Source: Prochlorococcus sp. scB241_528O2
Lineage (GTDB): Bacteria; Cyanobacteriota; Cyanobacteriia; PCC-6307; Cyanobiaceae
NCBI GenBank assembly: GCA_000634115.1
Contig: JFLJ01000130.1
Span: 25,702-89,701, forward strand
Reading direction: 5' to 3'
DNA length: 64,000 bases
Part shown: piece by piece, positions 3,143-20,743 of the stretch
Numbering within the stretch: position 1 is the first letter of the stretch
How the letters are laid out: every line of letters starts with the position of its first letter
Made by a program: the position numbers and the translations under genes
Notes under the pieces: model-generated
The model's database searches: none
What the model saw: only the letters and a program-made list of their open reading frames with translations
Told to the model about the DNA's origin: nothing

Positions 3143-3208
3143 ATGAAATTATTGAAGCCAACTAAAGTTAACAGAGCTAAGAAATTATGCAATGCAATGG
3201 CCTAAAAA

Positions 3209-3457
3209 TTAAAAATAACTTCTAAAAATACTGGTTTTCTTCCAACCTTCTTTCAATAATTCTGCATATTCTTTTCTTGCTGCTTCAATAGTTTCTACTC
3301 TGCTACCTTTCATAACTGGCTTACTTGATCTCTTGTAAACGCAACCATAACTAATCATCATTGCATCAATAGATGAGGAAGGCTTGGAAACATCTTCAAA
3401 TGGTTCAAAGACTTTTATTCTTGATCTGTTCTTATTTATAAGAGTAAATTTCTCCAT
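3209..3457 (-). CDS. DUF1651-like small protein, intact copy
   Basis: 82 aa; two decayed neighbours at 3529-3612 and 3830-4075. Confidence 0.65.
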   Translation of the reverse strand: MEKFTLINKNRSRIKVFEPFEDVSKPSSSIDAMMISYGCVYKRSSKPVMKGSRVETIEAARKEYAELLKEGWKKTSIFRSYF

Positions 3458-3528
3458 AAATTAATAATAGACACAAACAGGGGGGCTCTAGGGGATCTAC
3501 CTTTACGTACTTTCTAAATACTTGTGCC

Positions 3529-3612
3529 TTAGAAGTAGCTATTGAATATAGAAGTTTTCTTCCAACTCTCCTCTAGTAACTTCTTATATTCTTCTCTTGC
3601 AGCTTCTATACT
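3529..3612 (-). pseudogene. C-terminal fragment of DUF1651-like gene
   Basis: encodes AREEYKKLLEESWKKTSIFNSYF* without N-terminus. Confidence 0.65.
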
Positions 3613-3829
3613 TATGAAAAAAAATTAAAAATTCTCTCATTTTTTGAAGTTAAAAGGTATTAATTTGCATTTAAAAGGTATTATTTTTAATACATAACAC
3701 TATTTAAAAAATGTTAAAACTTTCTATCGTTTTATTACCAATAATCGCTGCACTTATATGGGCTCTGTTTATAGGGTTAAGAATAAATAAAGTAGAAACT
3801 AGAGATGGAAAAAGAAAATTAATTAATTA

Positions 3830-4075
3830 CTAAAAATAAGATCTAAATATAGAAGTTTTCTTCCAACCTTCCTCCAGAAGTTGCTTATATTCCTTTCTTG
3901 CAGCTTCTGTAGTTTCAACTCTTGAACCTTTCATAACTGGCTTACTTGATCTCTTGTAAACGCAACCATAAATAATCATTGCATCAATAGATGGGGAAGT
4001 CTTGGAAACATCTTCAAATGGTTAAAAGACTTTTATTCTTGATCTTTCCTTATTTATAAGAGTAAATTTCTCCAT
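3830..4075 (-). pseudogene. DUF1651-like gene with nonsense mutation
   Basis: MEKFTLINKERSRIKVF*PFEDVSK... aligns to 3209-3457; GAA replaced by TAA at codon 18. Confidence 0.75.
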
Positions 4076-4226
4076 CAAATAAGCAATTAAATAAACTATT
4101 GCACCAATACTAAAAATCAAGCTACGCTCATGTGAGTTAATAGTCATTAAATTTAGCCCTTATCTAAAGAGTAAATAATTTTAAACTTATGCTATAAATG
4201 ACTTCTAAGATTTCTATCAAAAATTC

Positions 4227-5562: not shown

Positions 5563-5606
5563 ATTTGGGAGCACTAGGTCGCAGGTTCGAATCCTGTCAC
5601 CCCGAC
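5563..5606 (+). repeat. tRNA-Pro(UGG) 3'-half fragment 1
   Basis: tttgggagcactaggtcgcaggttcgaatcctgtcaccccgac; no D-arm or 5' acceptor strand upstream. Confidence 0.8.
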
Positions 5607-5663
5607 TTTAAAACAAAGAGTCATACTAGGAAGTCTCCAAACTCATTTTGTTATTGCTTTTAC

Positions 5664-6970: not shown

Positions 6971-7036
6971 TTGTTAAGAAAAATTACATTTACTGTTACA
7001 AAATGTAAACCATTTTCTTCTCAATCGTGAGTATGT

Positions 7037-7077
7037 TTTTGGAGCACTAGGTCCTAGGTTAGAATCCTGTCGCCCCA
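7037..7077 (+). repeat. tRNA-Pro 3'-half fragment 2
   Basis: tttggagcactaggtcctaggttagaatcctgtcgcccca. Confidence 0.75.
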
Positions 7078-7157: not shown

Positions 7158-7454
7158 TTATTTATTCTTTTCTTCTAAATAACCTCTTTCTCTTCCGTAT
7201 TCTATTGATCCAACAGTATCTCCAGAATTTCTAGTTCCCTTCCCTGTGACGTTGCCTGCGATAGGGTCAATTAATGACTTATTTGTTGGCCAAACTGCCC
7301 AAATAAAAGCTGCTAGCCAAGGCACTCCTGCTGCTATTGCAAATGTATTGATCCCCAAAATTACCCACTTATAGGTATGCCTTCTGTAGAAAGCAATGAA
7401 AGTAGGAATAAAATATATAGCTAATAGAAATAGACCAATTATTAAAAATTCCAT
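7158..7454 (-). CDS. superinfection immunity (Imm) family membrane protein
   Basis: YFIPTFIAFYRRHTYKWVILGINTFAIAAGVPWLAAFIWAVWP. Confidence 0.7.
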   Translation of the reverse strand: MEFLIIGLFLLAIYFIPTFIAFYRRHTYKWVILGINTFAIAAGVPWLAAFIWAVWPTNKSLIDPIAGNVTGKGTRNSGDTVGSIEYGRERGYLEEKNK

Positions 7455-7769: not shown

Positions 7770-7952
7770 AGTATTAGATTACATCATTACCAACTCAGCT
7801 TGAGTGGTTGAAGTTGTCAATAGATTACTTTATAAACTCTAGGAGTATTCTCTCAGTCATTTTTGCCCTATTCCTTGAACTGAACTGATTAATTTTTTAT
7901 CGTTTAAATTTATTGCATTGATGATTTCTTTAACCGAGAATTTATTTAACAA

Positions 7953-8351
7953 TTACCTTCCTATTTGTGAACCCACACCTTTGTTATTGAGTTCCTTTTG
8001 ATATGCCTCTTTGTTTGATAGTAGGATATCTTTAATCGAGAATTGATTTAACAATGACATACCGATTTGTGAACCCACACCTTTGTTATTGAGTTCCTTT
8101 TGATATGCCTCTTTGTTTGATAGTAGGATATTTTTAATCGAGAATTGATTTAACAATGTCATACCGATTTGTGAACCCACACGTTTGTTATTGAGTTCCT
8201 TTTGATATGCCTCTTTGCTTGATAGTAGGATATCTTTAATCGAGGCTTGATTTAACAATGACATACCGATTTGTGAACCCACACGTTTGTTATTGAGTTC
8301 CTTTTGATATGCCTCTTTGCTTGATAGTAGGATATCTTTAATCGAGGTCAT
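7953..8351 (-). CDS. tandem-repeat protein, four 34-aa units (SIKDILLSSKEAYQKELNNKRVGSQIGMSLLNQx)
   Basis: 102-bp DNA repeats; last unit ends at an in-frame TAA while repeat-like frame continues to ~7861. Confidence 0.75.
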   Translation of the reverse strand: MTSIKDILLSSKEAYQKELNNKRVGSQIGMSLLNQASIKDILLSSKEAYQKELNNKRVGSQIGMTLLNQFSIKNILLSNKEAYQKELNNKGVGSQIGMSLLNQFSIKDILLSNKEAYQKELNNKGVGSQIGR

Positions 8352-8471
8352 GTTAATTTATCTCATATTTATTTCAAATTTATAATAGTTTCTATATACA
8401 AATCACGCAAGAGTACGCAAGAAATTAGTTATAGCCTATAACACCAGTGCTAATCTAGGGGTGTCCAGAGT

Positions 8472-8514
8472 CTTGGGAGCACTAGGTCGCAGGTTCGAAT
8501 CCTGTCGCCCCGAC
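8472..8514 (+). repeat. tRNA-Pro 3'-half fragment 3
   Basis: cttgggagcactaggtcgcaggttcgaatcctgtcgccccgac, followed by aaggtttcccagcctgtcttttttattgc. Confidence 0.8.
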
Positions 8515-8710
8515 TATTAGAATCCAAGTTATAAAAAGGTTTCCCAGCCTGTCTTTTTTATTGCTTTCTTTTAGAATAATGAGACTGAGCGAGCTTTGAG
8601 CTAGGATTTGTTTACCTTGCCTAACCTCGCCATGAGGTATTGCTAAAGGCAATTATTACATCCACAAAATAATCCCAATAATTCCTATCATTAAAAAAAC
8701 TACAATTACG

Positions 8711-8881
8711 ATGAAATCATTATTTTCAAGTAACAGATCAAAAGCAATTTTAGCGATTGGTTTAATAGCTATTGGTATTGGCGCAATTTCAAAAAAGGTT
8801 ATTAGCTACCCAACTGGAAACTGTATGAAAGAGACTCAAGAATTGACTTTAAATCAAGGGATAAACAAGTTATTTATTTAA
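8711..8881 (+). CDS. 56-aa small membrane protein (MKSLFSSNRSKAILAIGLIAIGIGAISKK...)
   Basis: ORF not in supplied track. Confidence 0.55.
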   Translation: MKSLFSSNRSKAILAIGLIAIGIGAISKKVISYPTGNCMKETQELTLNQGINKLFI

Positions 8882-8981
8882 CAAGTAAGCGTTTCAATTA
8901 TTTTTCTGAGTTAAACCACTTATAAATCCAGCTTTTTTAAATGCATTAGTGGTTATTGACTCTCTATTTTTTAAAGTTTAT

Positions 8982-9497
8982 TTATATTGCCCAAGGGCAT
9001 TGATATGCGTACTTTGAATAAATTTTTGCGTAACCTTTCTCAACCATTAATTGCTGAATATTTATATCATTAATTGACAGTTCAGCGACTGTTCGGTCAT
9101 ATCTATCCTTTGTAATTCTCCTTATATCAAGATCTCTACCAGCGACTAAACTATTTAGATAATCCCTTGATTCTTTTGCTGGAACTGGATCAGCCTTCGT
9201 ACCTCTCAACTCAGGTGAATCAATACAAGCCAATCTTATTTTTTCCCCTTGTGTTGATGTACATGTATCACCGTCATAACAAGATTCAATGTTTATATTT
9301 TTAATATTATTTGAATTTAAATTTTCTTTTTTAATTGATCTATGACAGTGATAACTATCATTCTTTTTGTCATTATGACAACCCTCTCCATTTAAAATAC
9401 CTCCATGAACAATTAAATTTTTACCATTAATAGCAGTAGGTAAAGCAAGTATAACTAGTAGTGTTAATACTAAGCTTTTCATTATGTATTGCTGCAT
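8982..9497 (-). CDS. staphylococcal-nuclease-like (SNase) secreted nuclease
   Basis: YDGDTCTSTQGEKIRLACIDSPELRGTKADPVPAKESRDYL; signal peptide, likely start MKSLVLTLL. Confidence 0.8.
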   Translation of the reverse strand: MQQYIMKSLVLTLLVILALPTAINGKNLIVHGGILNGEGCHNDKKNDSYHCHRSIKKENLNSNNIKNINIESCYDGDTCTSTQGEKIRLACIDSPELRGTKADPVPAKESRDYLNSLVAGRDLDIRRITKDRYDRTVAELSINDINIQQLMVEKGYAKIYSKYAYQCPWAI

Positions 9498-9529
9498 TCA
9501 CACATTGGGACTTCTTAACCTCTAATGAT

Positions 9530-9957
9530 TAAAGTCTCGAATTTAGTAATTGGACTATATACATAATAAGCAATTTGTTTTGAAGCTGATAATTCTAAAA
9601 GAGGAAATTTTGTCTCTACATATTTTCTGTCATCCCAAATCAAAATTATGCAACAGCGAGATCCACAGGTTTTGCTAGTAACATTCCTAATTTCTTCGTT
9701 TAGGACTCCTGTGTTTACTAATAAAATTTGGTTGCACCCCCACTAACATTTTGAATCTTGCCTAAAGGTTCATAAACACCCTTATTGCAACCTGAGGGAT
9801 TCAGAATAGCGACTCAGCCTACAAAAATTCCGCCCAATATCAGAATAAGAAAAATTAGCCTGTATACTAGAATTTTTTAAAACCTTCTCTACAGAATCTC
9901 CTTTTTTTGTAGTACTTCAGCCTTCCTATAAAATTTTATATCTTTATCGTATTGCAT
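9530..9957 (-). pseudogene. decayed gene, frameshifts and stops
   Basis: coherent segments in different frames: NKGVYEPLGKIQNVSGGA and VNTGVLNEEIRNVTSKTCGSRCCIILIWDDRKYVETKFPLLELSASKQIAYYVYSP; start preceded by cassette d. Confidence 0.55.
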
Positions 9958-10001
9958 TAAAAAGTAAATAATTGCCATTTACTCTAGATCGTTTGTCAAT
10001 C
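9955..10001 (-). promoter_or_regulatory. dispersed cassette, copy d
   Basis: reverse: GATTGACAAACGATCTAGAGTAAATGGCAATTATTTACTTTTTAATG. Confidence 0.5.
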
Positions 10002-10179
10002 AATAATCACTTTAATACTTAATCGCCATTTGCCACTCAGGATTACATTGGAGAATATCTCACCCATTTTTATGATGAATATGCATCAATTAAATAATTT
10101 TTATATTCTTAGATTTCCTACATTATTTAATGTTTGATTAAAATTAGAAAAATGAATCTAAAACATTAATATCTAATTT

Positions 10180-10797
10180 TTGGACCTTGAAACTCTTACA
10201 CAAAAATTTCAATCCTACAGTGGATTAGTTTTATTTTTTTTTATTGCATTACACCTTGCAGGGGTTATCTTTGCAGGAATTAATCCTGATGCTTTTGAAA
10301 TATACGCCTCAAAATTACATTCAAGTTTATTTTTACCTTATTTTGAGATAGTACTTGCTATAACATTCATAATTCATATATTACTAACGTTAAAAAAGGT
10401 TTTAAAAAATAGATCAAGTGGTAATAAAGCAATATTAAAGACTAGGAGAAATGATTATCTAGGAGTATTTGCATCCAAATTTCAACCTTTTACAGGCGTA
10501 ATCTTGGCTTCCTTTTTAATAATTCATCTCTTGCAATTGAGATTCCCTAGGCCAACCGATAACTTGGAGTTAACTTCTCTAAAAAATAAATTAGGAGGTG
10601 TTCATATTTTAGTTCTTTATTCTTTAGCATCAATATCACTTTTTTTTCATATGGTACAAGGTATTGAATCAGGTCATAGAAGTTTAGGGATCTTAAGTCA
10701 AAGTAATTCGTTAAATATAAGATATATAAGTAGATTTATATCTATATTTTTTGGACTTTCTTATTTAATAATGACTTTTTACTTAAGATTTAAATAA
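10180..10797 (+). CDS. sdhC: succinate dehydrogenase cytochrome b subunit (b558-like)
   Basis: multi-TM, four TM histidines (ALHLAG, IIHIL, IIHLL, FFHMVQG); directly upstream of sdhA. Confidence 0.8.
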   Translation: MDLETLTQKFQSYSGLVLFFFIALHLAGVIFAGINPDAFEIYASKLHSSLFLPYFEIVLAITFIIHILLTLKKVLKNRSSGNKAILKTRRNDYLGVFASKFQPFTGVILASFLIIHLLQLRFPRPTDNLELTSLKNKLGGVHILVLYSLASISLFFHMVQGIESGHRSLGILSQSNSLNIRYISRFISIFFGLSYLIMTFYLRFK

Positions 10798-10801
10798 TAA
10801 A

Positions 10802-12727
10802 ATGAATAACTTGATTAATCCAAATTTACCAACTGGAGAATTAGAAGGAGGGTGGCAAAAAACAGTTAAAAACCTATCTAATCTTAATACCGAAAAGAAA
10901 AATAAATTTGAAATTATTATTGTAGGATGCGGCTTATCAGGTAGTTCGGCCGCAGCCACTCTTGCTGAGGAAGGATTTAAGATTAAACTTCTCACTTATC
11001 ATGATAGTCCAAGAAGAGCACACTCAGTATCAGCTCAAGGAGGTATTAATGCGGCAAGATCATCACCAGATGAAGAAAATAAAGTTGTTATAGATCAATT
11101 ATTTAAAGACACCGTACTCGGAGGTGATTTTAGAGCAAGAGAAGTAAGTTGCCAACGTCTTTCTGAATTAAGTAGTTCCATAATTGATCAGTGTGTCTCA
11201 CAAGGCGTACCTTTTGCTCGTGAATATAATGGAACTCTTGCTACTAGAAGATTTGGAGGTGCTGTAGTTAGTCGAACTTTTTATGCCCGTGGTCAAACAG
11301 GGCAACAGTTACTATATGGAGCTTACCAATCCTTATCGCGACAAGTGAATCTTGGAAATATTAAACTTTTTACAAAAAGAGATGTACTTGATTTGGTAAT
11401 TGTTAATGATGTTGCAAGAGGAGTAATTGCAAGAAATTTAATTAATGGAAATTTAGAGACTTATAAAGCACATTGTGTTGTTTTAGCAACTGGTGGATAT
11501 AGCAACGTCTATTACCTATCAACAAATTCATTAAAATCAAATGCTACTGCAATTTGGAGAGCCCACAAAAGGGGGGCAAATTTTGCAAATCCCTCTTTTA
11601 CACAAATACATCCAACATGTATACCTCCCGGAGATATTTATCAAAGCAAATTAACTTTAATGAGCGAAAGTTTAAGGAATGATGGAAGGATTTGGTTACC
11701 AAAAAAAATTAATTCCAAAGATGATCCTGAAAATATTCCAGAAGATGAAAGAGACTATTTTCTGGAAAGGCAATATCCTAAATATGGGAATTTAGTTCCC
11801 AGAGATGTCGCTTCTAGAAGATCAAAAGAGCTCTTTGAAAAAGGTTTTGGGATTGGCTTTGGTGGTAAAGGAGTATATCTTGACTTAAAAGACTCAATAA
11901 AAAAAGATGGATTAAAGGTAATAAAGGCTAAATATGGGAATTTATTAGAGATGTATGAACGAATTGTTGGTGAAGACCCAACAAAAGTACCTATGAAGAT
12001 TTATCCAGCCCCTCATTACACAATGGGTGGATTATGGGTTGATTACAATTTAATGAGCAATCTAGATGGCCTTTTCGTTTTAGGAGAGGCGAACTATTCT
12101 GTTCATGGTGCAAATCGGTTAGGAGCAAATGCTTTATTGCAATGCTTATGTGATGGATACTTTATATCACCAAAAACTATCACCTCTTGGTTAGCAAATA
12201 ATAAGGGAATAGATAACAGAAAAATTGATGAAGCTTGTAAAGAGGCTTTAAATTACGTCGATAAAAAAATAAAATCTTTACTAAAAATAAAAGGAGATAA
12301 ACCTGTTGACTATTTCCACAGAGCTCTAGGGGAAATAATGATCTCGAAATGCGGTATTAGTAGAAATAGAAATGACCTAAAATCTGCTCTTGAAGAAGTA
12401 GAAATTTTAAGTAAAAATTTTAATTCCAATTTAAAAATACCTCAAACAAATTCTGGTTTAAATGTAGAGCTTGAAAAAGCTTTAAGGCTAGAAGACTTTA
12501 TTGAACTCTCAATACTGATGATTAAAGATGCAATTGAAAGGGAGGAATCATGTGGAGCCCATTTCAGAGAAGAATATCAAACTAAAGAAGGAGAAGCTAA
12601 GAGGAATGATGACCTTTTCTCGCATATAGCAGTTTGGAAATTTAATGCTGACAATAATTCTCATATAAGATTTTCTGAAAACCTAAACTTCAAGAAGATT
12701 AGCTTAAATACTAGAAACTATAAATGA
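10802..12727 (+). CDS. sdhA: succinate dehydrogenase/fumarate reductase flavoprotein subunit
   Basis: GCGLSGSSAAATLAEEG, HSVSAQGGINAA, HGANRLGANALLQCL. Confidence 0.92.
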   Translation: MNNLINPNLPTGELEGGWQKTVKNLSNLNTEKKNKFEIIIVGCGLSGSSAAATLAEEGFKIKLLTYHDSPRRAHSVSAQGGINAARSSPDEENKVVIDQLFKDTVLGGDFRAREVSCQRLSELSSSIIDQCVSQGVPFAREYNGTLATRRFGGAVVSRTFYARGQTGQQLLYGAYQSLSRQVNLGNIKLFTKRDVLDLVIVNDVARGVIARNLINGNLETYKAHCVVLATGGYSNVYYLSTNSLKSNATAIWRAHKRGANFANPSFTQIHPTCIPPGDIYQSKLTLMSESLRNDGRIWLPKKINSKDDPENIPEDERDYFLERQYPKYGNLVPRDVASRRSKELFEKGFGIGFGGKGVYLDLKDSIKKDGLKVIKAKYGNLLEMYERIVGEDPTKVPMKIYPAPHYTMGGLWVDYNLMSNLDGLFVLGEANYSVHGANRLGANALLQCLCDGYFISPKTITSWLANNKGIDNRKIDEACKEALNYVDKKIKSLLKIKGDKPVDYFHRALGEIMISKCGISRNRNDLKSALEEVEILSKNFNSNLKIPQTNSGLNVELEKALRLEDFIELSILMIKDAIEREESCGAHFREEYQTKEGEAKRNDDLFSHIAVWKFNADNNSHIRFSENLNFKKISLNTRNYK

Positions 12728-13455
12728 AAGATTTTATTTCTATTAAATTTAAAGTTTGGAGGCAATTTAGTAATGAATCTAAAGGCTCATATGAAGAATT
12801 TAGTTTAGAAAAAGTATCTGTAAAAATATCTTTACTCGAAGCCTTAGATCAATTGAATGAAGAATTAATAACTAAAAATATAAGGCCCATTACCTTTGAT
12901 CATGATTGTAGAGAAGGGATATGTGGAAGTTGTGGTTTTTTAATAAATGGTCAACCTCATGGACCAAAAAGAGGAACAACTACTTGTCAGATTTACATGA
13001 GAAATTTTAAAGATAATGCTTTGATAATGCTTGAACCATGGCGAACAAAATCATTCCCAATTATCCAAGACTTGTCAGTAGATAGAAATGCACTGGATAA
13101 ATTAATTATTTCGGGTGGGTATTTATCTACTGAGACTGGTAACGCACCCGATGCCAATCTAATTCCAATAAGTCCTAAAAAAGCATTTTCTTCTTTTGAA
13201 ACTGCTACCTGTATAGGTTGTGGGGCGTGTGTTGCAGGATGTAAAAATGCATCATCAAGTCTTTTTGTAGCGGCAAAACTGGCTCATTTAGGACAACTCC
13301 CTCAAGGGATTAATGGTAAAAAAGAAAGGTCAATAAAAATGCGAAAACAAATGAATATTGAAGGTTTTGGTCAATGCAGTAATAATCTTGAATGTGAGGC
13401 AGTTTGTCCTAAAGAAATATCCGCCGATTGGATTAGCTGGATGAATAAAATTTGA
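12724..13455 (+). CDS. sdhB: succinate dehydrogenase iron-sulfur subunit
   Basis: CREGICGSCGFLING (2Fe-2S) and CIGCGACVAGCKNA (4Fe-4S); ATGA overlap with sdhA. Confidence 0.92.
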   Translation: MKDFISIKFKVWRQFSNESKGSYEEFSLEKVSVKISLLEALDQLNEELITKNIRPITFDHDCREGICGSCGFLINGQPHGPKRGTTTCQIYMRNFKDNALIMLEPWRTKSFPIIQDLSVDRNALDKLIISGGYLSTETGNAPDANLIPISPKKAFSSFETATCIGCGACVAGCKNASSSLFVAAKLAHLGQLPQGINGKKERSIKMRKQMNIEGFGQCSNNLECEAVCPKEISADWISWMNKI

Positions 13456-13650
13456 GAAAGTTTTTTATAATTAAATTTATAAAACCTTTTATAAATGGCA
13501 AGAGACAAACGGGCGAGGATTTGTATATTTTTGAATAATTTTGTATACCTTTTGTATATTTTTGAGACTGGTAATTTCTAATAGCTTGCGACTAACTTGC
13601 CATAACTTGAATTATTTATTTCGGCAATTGTCTCAAATTGAAGGCGGGTG

Positions 13651-13694
13651 AATTGGGATCACTAGCTCTCAGGTTCGAATCCTGTCGACCCTAC
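13651..13694 (+). repeat. tRNA-Pro 3'-half fragment 4
   Basis: aattgggatcactagctctcaggttcgaatcctgtcgaccctac. Confidence 0.78.
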
Positions 13695-13964
13695 TCAATC
13701 AAATTCAATTAATACTAGAGAGTAATCCAGAATTTCTTTTTTTATTGCCTACTATAAGAAATATATGACTTAGAGATTAAAGAGATTATCTCCTATACCT
13801 TACATAACCTTGCTGCCTTAATCACTAATTTTCACTAGGGAAGTACTATTTATGAATATTGAGTAAAACTATATAAATTCCCAACAATACAAATATTGCT
13901 GCACCTACTCCAATAAATTTAGTGGTTGATTATGCCAAATCTCCTTCAAAAATTCTATATTCAT

Positions 13965-14222
13965 TTAAAGGATTGGATATGCTATCCATCCAAATAAGGT
14001 GTAGTTAATAATGACAGCCATGAAGCCTATCATTGCCAGCCTTCCATTTGTTCTTTCCGCAATAAACCAATAGGTATTTGGCCATTCAAAAATTCCTTCC
14101 ATATTGGATATTTGATCTTCTGTAACTGGAGTCTCTTTAGGAGTATTGTCCTGATCAAGATAATAATTACTATCTGGGTAATAGCTTTCGCTTGACATAT
14201 TTTCTAATTTAAAGTCAACCAT
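13965..14222 (-). CDS. hli: high-light-inducible (Hli) chlorophyll-binding protein
   Basis: FIAERTNGRLAMIGFMAVIINYTLFGW. Confidence 0.9.
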   Translation of the reverse strand: MVDFKLENMSSESYYPDSNYYLDQDNTPKETPVTEDQISNMEGIFEWPNTYWFIAERTNGRLAMIGFMAVIINYTLFGWIAYPIL

Positions 14223-16646: not shown

Positions 16647-16765
16647 AAAAGAATTATGTCATATAAATTTCATATGAGGGTTTCTTTGTAAGGAGAAAAT
16701 ACACAAAAATAAGCAATATAATATTCATAGCATAAAAACCTTGAGCGGCACTAGGGATATCCAGT

Positions 16766-16809
16766 GTTTTGGGGCACTACGTCGCAAGTTCAAATCCTGT
16801 AGCCCCGAC
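16766..16809 (+). repeat. tRNA-Pro 3'-half fragment 5
   Basis: gttttggggcactacgtcgcaagttcaaatcctgtagccccgac, followed by aaggtttcccagtctgtctttttttattg. Confidence 0.8.
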
Positions 16810-16983
16810 TCTAATAATCTAATTAATAGAAAGGTTTCCCAGTCTGTCTTTTTTTATTGTTCAAAATCTTCGGCAACGATAGCCGTCTAATTGCCGTAAA
16901 TAATTAATTTGTCTGAATTTATAAATATTAGATTTTAAATTCTGAGTATAAAGATTAATTTTAAATTAATTATTTCTTAATTC

Positions 16984-19185: not shown

Positions 19186-19362
19186 TCAATCTATTTTGGG
19201 AGCCTCATTAATATCTTTTTCCCAAACCCTAGCGAGTTCTCTTAGTAGAGTTTTTACTTCCATATCTGTAGCACCAGTTTCATCTTGGAATTTAGTGCAA
19301 ATGACTTTAATTTTGTCAAAAGCTTGCTCAAGTAATATTGTTTTTTGATCTGGATTCGCCAT
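19186..19362 (-). CDS. 58-aa small acidic protein
   Basis: MANPDQKTILLEQAFDKIKVICTKFQDETGATDMEVKTLLRELARVWEKDINEAPKID. Confidence 0.55.
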   Translation of the reverse strand: MANPDQKTILLEQAFDKIKVICTKFQDETGATDMEVKTLLRELARVWEKDINEAPKID

Positions 19363-19548
19363 TTAATTTTTATCTACTACTTCTCCGCCATACTCTCTTG
19401 CTATTACATCTAAACACATAAGAATATCTTTATTTTTTAATAAATCTGTCTCACTCAAATACCTAAGAAGGGTTCTTATTTGCTCAATAGTGTTTTCTTG
19501 TAATTCCTTCATTAATACTTTGTTGCTATCTGCCAATAAGGATAGCAA
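19363..19548 (-). CDS. hypothetical small protein, 61 aa
   Basis: ORF track. Confidence 0.5.
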   Translation of the reverse strand: MLSLLADSNKVLMKELQENTIEQIRTLLRYLSETDLLKNKDILMCLDVIAREYGGEVVDKN

Positions 19549-19764
19549 CTAAATATTTTTCTATAAATAACTGTAATTTTCTAGAGTTTATATTTATGTA
19601 AATAGATTCGCACAGTTCTTCTTCAACAAATACGACTAATTCCTCTTTACCATGGAAAGAAGAGGAATTCTTTTAGGTAAACTTCTAATCTTTCCAGCTA
19701 AAGGTTCATAGACCTTATGATGAAACAGAAAACTCAAAAAAAGAGGAATTAACTATTTTTACTT

Positions 19765-20130
19765 TTATTCTGCTTCCTCTTTAACCTCACTTTCTTTTTT
19801 CTCTTCCTCTTTAACCTCACTTTCTTTTGTCTCTTCCGCTTTTACTTCCTCTTTAACCTCACTTTCTTTTATCTCTTCCTCTTTAACCTCACTTTCTTTT
19901 GTCTCTTCCGCTTTTACTTCCTCTTTAACCTCACTTTCTTTTGTCTCTTCCGCTTTTACTTCCTCTTTAACCTCACTTTCTTTTGCCTTTGGCTCTTTCG
20001 TTTTAACTTCAACTACTTTTACTTTTTCTGCCATAGCGGCAAACTTACCTTTAATTAAATTTACTATGAAGATTAATATTGGTACATGGGCTAGGCCACC
20101 CATTATTACTTTAGTTTCTGAATAATACAT
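19765..20130 (-). CDS. membrane-anchored protein with (ESEVKEEVKAEETK)n tail
   Basis: same N-terminal anchor as 15168-15485; ~42-bp tandem repeats in DNA. Confidence 0.7.
   Translation of the reverse strand: MYYSETKVIMGGLAHVPILIFIVNLIKGKFAAMAEKVKVVEVKTKEPKAKESEVKEEVKAEETKESEVKEEVKAEETKESEVKEEEIKESEVKEEVKAEETKESEVKEEEKKESEVKEEAE
19781..19985 (-). repeat. tandem ~42-bp repeat array encoding KE-rich tail
   Basis: repeated ctctttaacctcactttcttttgtctcttccgcttttacttc. Confidence 0.8.
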
Positions 20131-20347
20131 TTTAAGTTAATTAGAACTGGAATATTTAAGCATAAATTTAATTTAATAAGTCCTTACATTAAGTTGATAT
20201 TAATAGAAAATAATTAATCGCTAGAACGAGTACTTTTGCACTACTTCATCTAGGTAAGGTTTAATCATTTATGTATTATCTAAGTTAAAGATGATCCTTG
20301 TAAAAATTACTAATTAAGTTAACTATGTAATAGCCGATACTTTTTTT

Positions 20348-20743
20348 ATGAACTTTAATAGATTTTTTTCTTTAAATTTTCTTGCTAAATTACTTTTAAG
20401 TGCGATTTTTGTAAATGCCATACCGAGTAAGATTACTGACTTTGGAAGTCAAGCACAATATATAACAACCAAAGGATTTCCAGAGCCTCTTTCTAATCTT
20501 TTGTTAATTGGAGCAATAGCACTCTTAATTAGCGGTTCAATTCTTTTAATTTTTTCAAATAAAACCAAACTTGCGTGTTCTCTGCTACTAATTTTCTTAG
20601 TCCCGACAACGATTATTTTTCATTTAGTGCCTCTTCAATTTATGGCAATTACTCGAAATCTATCATTAATAGGAGGATTACTAATAGCTATTGATAAAAC
20701 GAAGGTTAATTCTTTAAATCAAGATAAAAAAACAAGCATCTAA
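20348..20743 (+). CDS. DoxX-like membrane protein
   Basis: 131 aa, four-TM DoxX-like pattern. Confidence 0.65.
   Translation: MNFNRFFSLNFLAKLLLSAIFVNAIPSKITDFGSQAQYITTKGFPEPLSNLLLIGAIALLISGSILLIFSNKTKLACSLLLIFLVPTTIIFHLVPLQFMAITRNLSLIGGLLIAIDKTKVNSLNQDKKTSI

Follow-up and report, generated by a model that had tools for sequence, protein, structure and literature searches.

Succinate dehydrogenase genes as probable cargo of a small, non-autonomous tRNA-Pro cassette in Prochlorococcus

Tycheposons of Prochlorococcus (Hackl et al. 2023, Cell) are reportedly tRNA-integrated cargo elements that carry a tyrosine recombinase and form arrays in genomic islands. We analyzed a 64,000-nucleotide stretch of the genome of Prochlorococcus sp. 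scB241_528O2 (hereafter the window; bases 25702-89701 of an 89.7 kb contig, C129), in which the three genes of a succinate dehydrogenase (SDH), sdhC-sdhA-sdhB, lie in an array of tRNA-Pro fragments. Our reading, to which we give a probability of roughly 0.7, is that the tRNA-Pro(TGG) island contains a small integrative cassette, non-autonomous and mobilized in trans, with the operon as its cargo. Such a cassette would most likely be a non-autonomous, trans-mobilized relative of the tycheposons. It resembles them in tRNA integration with tRNA fragment repeats and in having recombinase-bearing neighbors on the contig, but it measures about 3.7 kb, has no mobility gene, and carries matched arm words (short direct repeats) at both ends.

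Other described systems offer partial parallels. Cis-mobilizable elements (CIMEs), integrative and mobilizable elements (IMEs), and pseudo-staphylococcal cassette chromosome (pseudo-SCC) elements are att-flanked, recombinase-less derivatives that accrete in tandem beside autonomous elements. The SDH cassette differs in that each of its ends retains an inner arm word of its own, an argument for trans action on the SDH unit itself and not only for co-excision with a neighbor. The DR2 repeats of Tn916 and the arm-type sites of lambda are likewise tandem arm sites (about 10-11 bp) close to both ends of their element, and they are bound by the N-terminal domain of the recombinase; what sets the present case apart is that many words coexist at one tRNA and that recombinase-less cassettes share the layout. 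The Int protein of Tn1549 has an N-terminal arm-binding domain (PMC5871717). In the additive flexible genomic islands of Methylophilaceae, direct repeats of a tRNA end separate variable cassettes much as they do here (PMC10872708, a passage of which describes tycheposons second-hand), whereas the present work defines the ends of units, their arm words, and the cognate recombinases. Finally, an SdhABC gene cluster, Pro-eCAG_014, has been reported as accessory in Prochlorococcus (Dore et al. 2023, PMC10119275); it is alike as an accessory SDH of this genus, and the passage concerned gives neither its location nor the SDH type.

A cassette bounded by tRNA-Pro cores

The present genome (G000; 1.53 Mb in 231 contigs, 87.9% complete) was analyzed among 267 genomes of the genus and 401 of the family; other G labels denote genus genomes, and L labels denote fetched loci. 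A close SdhA homolog (at least 82% identity) occurs in 12 of the 267 genomes. Weaker matches are of two kinds: frames of NadB length, which almost all genomes have, and, in a minority of genomes, an SdhA/FrdA-like flavoprotein that is unlinked and 30% identical (e.g., a protein of about 582 aa at L030:1477-3225 in G031, beside a LexA-like gene and with no adjoining sdhB). We compared the surroundings of all 12 SDH-bearing loci: nine copies are parts of tRNA-Pro arrays and retain one or both cassette ends, and their neighbors differ. Six of these (G203, G116, G061, G020, G101, and G222) have both ends intact at near-constant spacing, with a tRNA-Pro core on either side at a distance of about 200-250 bp from the operon and a total length, core to core, of about 3.7 kb. 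Only the left end is found in G192 (at a contig end) and G238, and only the right end in the present genome. In G116, no other unit separates SDH from the intact tRNA, and the order there is tRNA-Pro core, left arm, a leader of about 90 bp plus the operon, right arm, and tRNA-Pro 3′ fragment. The cargo consists of sdhCAB only, with no recombinase and no other mobility, replication, packaging, or defense gene in the cassette. Its features in the window (coordinates are window positions) are as follows.

10040..10179, + strand: remnant of the left end of the SDH cassette (promoter-side leader); homology to other cassettes begins at 10040-10067
10180..10797, + strand: sdhC, diheme b558-type cytochrome b membrane anchor with a TTG start, intact; TIGR02046, Sdh_cyt
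10802..12727, + strand: sdhA, flavoprotein subunit, intact; PRK07573, TIGR01811
12724..13455, + strand: sdhB, iron-sulfur subunit, intact; PRK07570; ATGA overlap with sdhA
13500..13527, + strand: degraded right arm (iteron pair) of the SDH cassette, AAGAGACAAACGGGCGAGGATTTGTATA; 4 mismatches to GGGCGACAAACGGGCGAGGAATTGTATA
13644..13695, + strand: right attachment site of the SDH cassette, a fragment of tRNA-Pro nucleotides 24-75, 87% identity

A sequence-only reading of this DNA had placed the operon (10180-13455) between tRNA-Pro fragments and noted that sdhB overlaps sdhA; both observations hold, as the genes are intact and the fragments at 8473-8515 and 13644-13695 are real. It had also proposed that the operon is attachment-flanked mobile cargo. 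The sporadic distribution, the core-to-core bounds, and the tree conflict described below support this, and we infer the mobilization itself.

Pairwise homology between cassettes mostly begins at tRNA nucleotide 28 on the left side and stops close to the 3′ end of the tRNA on the right side, and a few pairs extend to +139, where the adjoining units are related. Between G061 and G020, the left neighbor is 98-100% identical up to the core and the cassette 92-98%, and the right neighbors are unrelated. Sequence related to the Hli-bearing unit that lies to the right of SDH here precedes SDH in G101, so the order of units has changed. Both neighbors of the G101 cassette are present in G106, from which SDH is absent; the 600-800 bp before the core differ. 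The SDH and polA-cysS trees reject each other in approximately unbiased (AU) tests, with p values of 2e-7 (nine genomes) and 7e-12 (six cassette genomes) on the SDH data and of 6e-5 and 0.037, respectively, on the core data. Vertical inheritance of SDH at the same position in all Prochlorococcus is not what we found.

Arm words, recombinases, and viral contigs

The window contains no intact tRNA; an intact tRNA-Pro(TGG) lies upstream on the same contig (C129:2270-2344), with tRNA-Pro 3′ fragments on the same strand at C129:5751, 20532, 23648, 31265, 32735, 34174, 39345, and 42465; two of them are the window fragments at 8473-8515 and 13644-13695. The 24-nt tRNA core was matched 4 times, compared to 0 expected (100 shuffles). 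Two elements near the intact tRNA-Pro encode tyrosine recombinases (C129:4400-5638 and 19188-20384).

Alignment of 47 core sites revealed short direct repeats just past the tRNA end, on its downstream side. With a period of 11 bp, a score of at least 8 is reached by 21 of 46 sites, vs. at most 1 in 20 shuffles, and other periods score far lower. Array units have such direct repeats, with a period of 10-12 bp, inside both ends; the word varies between units, whereas the two ends of one unit share it, in matching orientation (mean 12.5, compared to 8.9 when permuted, with a permuted maximum of 10.4 in 2000 permutations). These arms are putative recombinase binding sites. For SDH the word is GGGCGAGGA, the left arm GGGCGAGGAATGGGCGAGGATTTGTATA, and the right arm GGGCGACAAACGGGCGAGGAATTGTATA (exact in G116 and G020); the left arm of G116 has two copies of GGGCGAGGA 11 bp apart, and the same word stands in its right arm.

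The SDH word occurs in 36 of the 267 genomes and adjoins a tRNA-Pro core in 19 of 20 fetched non-SDH loci, the exception being L222, which has a right arm only, with no core found after it. Units with this word mostly bear other cargo, namely small Hli-like genes, a staphylococcal-nuclease-like (SNase) gene, and genes for repeat proteins 900-1900 aa long; a recombinase of their own was found in none of the fetched non-SDH units. The very large repeat proteins (about 900-1900 aa) are in L215, L216, L221, L223, and L224. Another recombinase element in L215 (11702-11866; genome G011) ends at a tRNA-Thr and has the repeat TGGATATATC at 10-bp spacing, so the layout of the arms may extend beyond tRNA-Pro.

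Recombinase loci were gathered with four recombinase queries (120, 120, 260, and 260 genomes). In most of those at tRNA-Pro, the stretch from the recombinase start codon to the core contains a word with a 10-12 bp period, at distances specific to each class (about −113 to −124, −156, −168, −193 to −200, and −263), and the SDH right arm belongs to the −193 to −200 class. The more alike two recombinases are, the more alike are their words (Mantel r 0.71, a value reached in 0 of 300 permutations); among pairs below 80% recombinase identity, r is 0.47. The right end of the SDH cassette resembles, over about 150 bp, that of the recombinase element of G029 (L367; z 9.6, next 4.7), and it is also in L367 that the word closest to GGGCGAGGA beside a recombinase, GAGCGAG, is found. 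Two other candidate partners for the SDH word were rejected: the L215 recombinase belongs to the element ending at tRNA-Thr, and in L318 (G105) a tRNA-Pro core separates the recombinase from the SDH-word arm.

Twenty viral contigs from IMG/VR (L195-L214) contain the same tRNA-Pro core, once each, and related tyrosine recombinases are encoded in 17 of them. The words on the two sides of the core match each other (mean 14.8, compared to a null maximum of 12.2), a layout that we read as a phage attachment site (attP) of the form right arm-core-left arm. A circularized cassette would have the same layout. No SDH was detected in viral contigs by pattern scan, nor in the 20 tRNA-Pro viral loci; SDH matches in INPHARED are all below 60% identity and all non-cyanophage, and the SDH word was not found in viral contigs.

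The copy in the window and the enzyme it encodes

The interval 8472-13694, bracketed as one element in the sequence-only reading, is by its sequence organization a fusion of an SNase cassette and the SDH cassette. The neighboring cassette includes the SNase gene and a decayed gene (8516 to about 10040), and the SDH cassette proper begins near 10040 because its left attachment site (core) and left arm have been lost; the right arm is degraded. The upstream SNase part opens with a different word, GAGCGAGC, and a similar SNase open reading frame in L218 lies within another cassette, which ends in a right arm with a GGGCGA word. Since it has lost its left end and is fused with the SNase cassette, the present copy is probably immobile by itself. 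The surrounding features are listed here.

5564..5607, + strand: tRNA-Pro fragment, array unit boundary
7034..7076, + strand: degraded tRNA-Pro fragment, array unit boundary
8473..8515, + strand: tRNA-Pro 3′ fragment, left attachment site of the SNase cassette; 100% to nucleotides 33-75 of the intact tRNA-Pro
8587..8614, + strand: left arm of the SNase cassette, GAGCGAGCTTTGAGCTAGGATTTGTTTA; word unlike the SDH right arm
8982..9497, − strand: staphylococcal-nuclease-like gene with a YHYH motif, cargo of the SNase cassette; PF00565, E=5e-13
13965..14222, − strand: small Hli/CAB-like gene of the unit that follows SDH on the right; named from reading the sequence, with no family match in profile searches
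16764..16810, + strand: tRNA-Pro fragment, right boundary of the Hli-bearing unit after the SDH cassette

Elsewhere in the window, a small gene (MEKFTLINK...) is present in three diverged copies at 3203-4082, relatives of which are carried as cargo by other cassettes (e.g., L225, L228). A small membrane protein at 7158-7454, within the array, matches the superinfection immunity family PF14373, and 102-bp tandem repeats at 7821-8432 encode a protein of 34-aa repeats (SIKDILLS.KEAYQKELNNKRVGSQIG). A neighboring 14.8 kb element of the contig (G000:C129:5796-20576), with the word TGTGTGTG, carries nuclease-like genes as well as a recombinase that matches no Pfam family, an AAA ATPase, and a 1172-aa RNase H/helicase protein.

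All three SDH subunits have recognizable family matches. SdhC matches TIGR02046 (E=1.4e-17) with 64 bits, under the curated cut-off of 96, and matches Sdh_cyt above its cut-off; a search of the PDB by sequence gave no real match for it. It has seven histidines, of which only H25, H66, H116, and H157 are invariant (67 of 67 homologs). The sequence-only reading had noted four transmembrane histidines as expected for a diheme b-type anchor, and the pattern is as for such an anchor, with four axial histidines in a single subunit. SdhA is above the cut-off for both PRK07573 (990 bits) and TIGR01811 (841 bits), its motifs HYTMGG, HGANRLG, and RAHS align with solved SDH/fumarate reductase chains, and the median dN/dS of sdhA is 0.11. 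SdhB exceeds the cut-off for PRK07570 (363 bits) and shows, in alignment to 9lay_B, the cysteine motifs for the 2Fe-2S, 4Fe-4S, and 3Fe-4S clusters. The enzyme is thus like known diheme b558 SDH/fumarate reductases (TIGR02046, TIGR01811; 9lay) in its subunits, four histidines, and Fe-S cysteine motifs, but it is borne on a putatively mobile cassette in a cyanobacterium. Electron flow is predicted to run from succinate to the quinone pool. A second SdhA was not found in the 87.9% complete genome; its other PF02910 match is a 559-aa frame of a length present in almost every genome, which we read as NadB.

We take the SDH complex to hold 9 Fe in clusters plus 2 hemes. An anti-correlation of SdhABC with iron-poor, high-nutrient, low-chlorophyll (HNLC) regions, given in a passage of PMC10119275, agrees with this iron content. 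Strain MED4 is without SDH (PMC5111396). The sequence-only reading held that such cargo would alter cyanobacterial electron flow; the cassette more likely restores a family enzyme missing from most high-light strains than adds something alien.

Mobilization in trans and the alternatives

In mobilization as we envisage it, the tyrosine recombinase would come from a related element whose arm word matches, and it would bind the arms and join the two tRNA-Pro cores. The cassette would then be excised as a circle whose attP has the form right arm-core-left arm, and the circle would integrate into any tRNA-Pro core of the array or into the intact tRNA. In other strains the cassette may still be mobile today, and the operon would presumably bring a physiological benefit. 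We lean slightly toward a broader proposal, an address system in the tRNA-Pro islands of high-light Prochlorococcus: each element would have a private word of 10-12 bp period at both ends, read by the matching recombinase, so that recombinase-less metabolic cassettes, here one with a whole SDH complex, and phages could share one tRNA site and be mobilized selectively in trans.

Several observations weigh against mobilization in trans. A recombinase with the exact GGGCGAGGA was not found, either with the four queries or by word search in the 267 genomes. An empty site, which had been proposed earlier as a check across the genus, was not found in base-exact form, G106 being the nearest and not exact. 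The core tree represents a single 4.4 kb locus (polA-cysS), and 84 pairs more than 80% identical drive part of the Mantel r of 0.71, which such near-identical pairs inflate; relatedness of elements can raise word similarity. Three of the 12 SDH copies (G136, G205, and G207) lie outside cassettes, and homologous recombination between arrays via the repeated tRNA sequence could also move units. We consider it unlikely that the latter, acting at repeated tRNA-Pro sequence and shared neighbor cassettes, is what carries units from cell to cell and among array positions in place of site-specific recombination of the SDH cassette itself. Arrays do hold many 43-52 bp repeats, the near-identical left neighbor and divergent cassette of G061/G020 are as in an allelic swap, and the missing exact cognate recombinase would also fit; however, arm words matched within each unit and paired with recombinases are not expected from it, the same arm layout flanks the single cores of viral contigs, and breakpoints fall at core edges in most pairs.

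Non-cassette copies also speak for a second alternative, that one old SDH insertion was inherited vertically, with the fragments as old scars and the sporadic presence due to differential loss. In G136 and G205, SDH adjoins an SRAP gene that is located 16 kb further right in the present window, and in G207 it has another, non-cassette context. Homologs are widespread across the family (SdhC in 126 of 401 genomes), and loss does occur: an 87-bp sdhC relic near an Hli-bearing unit in G146 (L294:4046-4132) is an SDH cassette lost by decay. Such a passive relic is nonetheless improbable given that neighbors differ in nearly every genome, that the SDH tree conflicts with the core tree at the AU values above, that homology edges run core to core, and that unit order differs between G101 and the present genome. 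Between the cassette and the G136 copy, homology is confined to the operon plus about 93 bp of upstream and 10 bp of downstream sequence. This is the pattern that capture of the operon between cassette ends, presumably from a chromosomal copy, would give; in the SdhA tree, the cassette copies form one clade (98), outside which the non-cassette copies fall, so the capture appears to have happened once. The same tree makes a foreign, Bacteroidetes-like respiratory complex brought in on the island scarcely credible, and SdhC homologs are, as noted, frequent in the family. The b558 family at large is common in Bacteroidota and other phyla, but every copy falls within the picocyanobacteria with 100% support, on one side of the tree and nearest to other Prochlorococcus-like genera, which refutes a foreign origin for SdhA. 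Judged by these sequences, the enzyme is a picocyanobacterial diheme b558-type SDH.

If the operon is indeed trans-mobilized cassette cargo, a streamlined phototroph could regain this costly and iron-rich complex, missing from most of its relatives, through gene-sized cassettes with built-in ends and not through large elements. Matched arm words would give a sequence rule to delimit island cassettes and to predict recombinase-cargo pairs, and the shared attP layout ties metabolic cassettes to viral contigs that integrate at tRNA-Pro.

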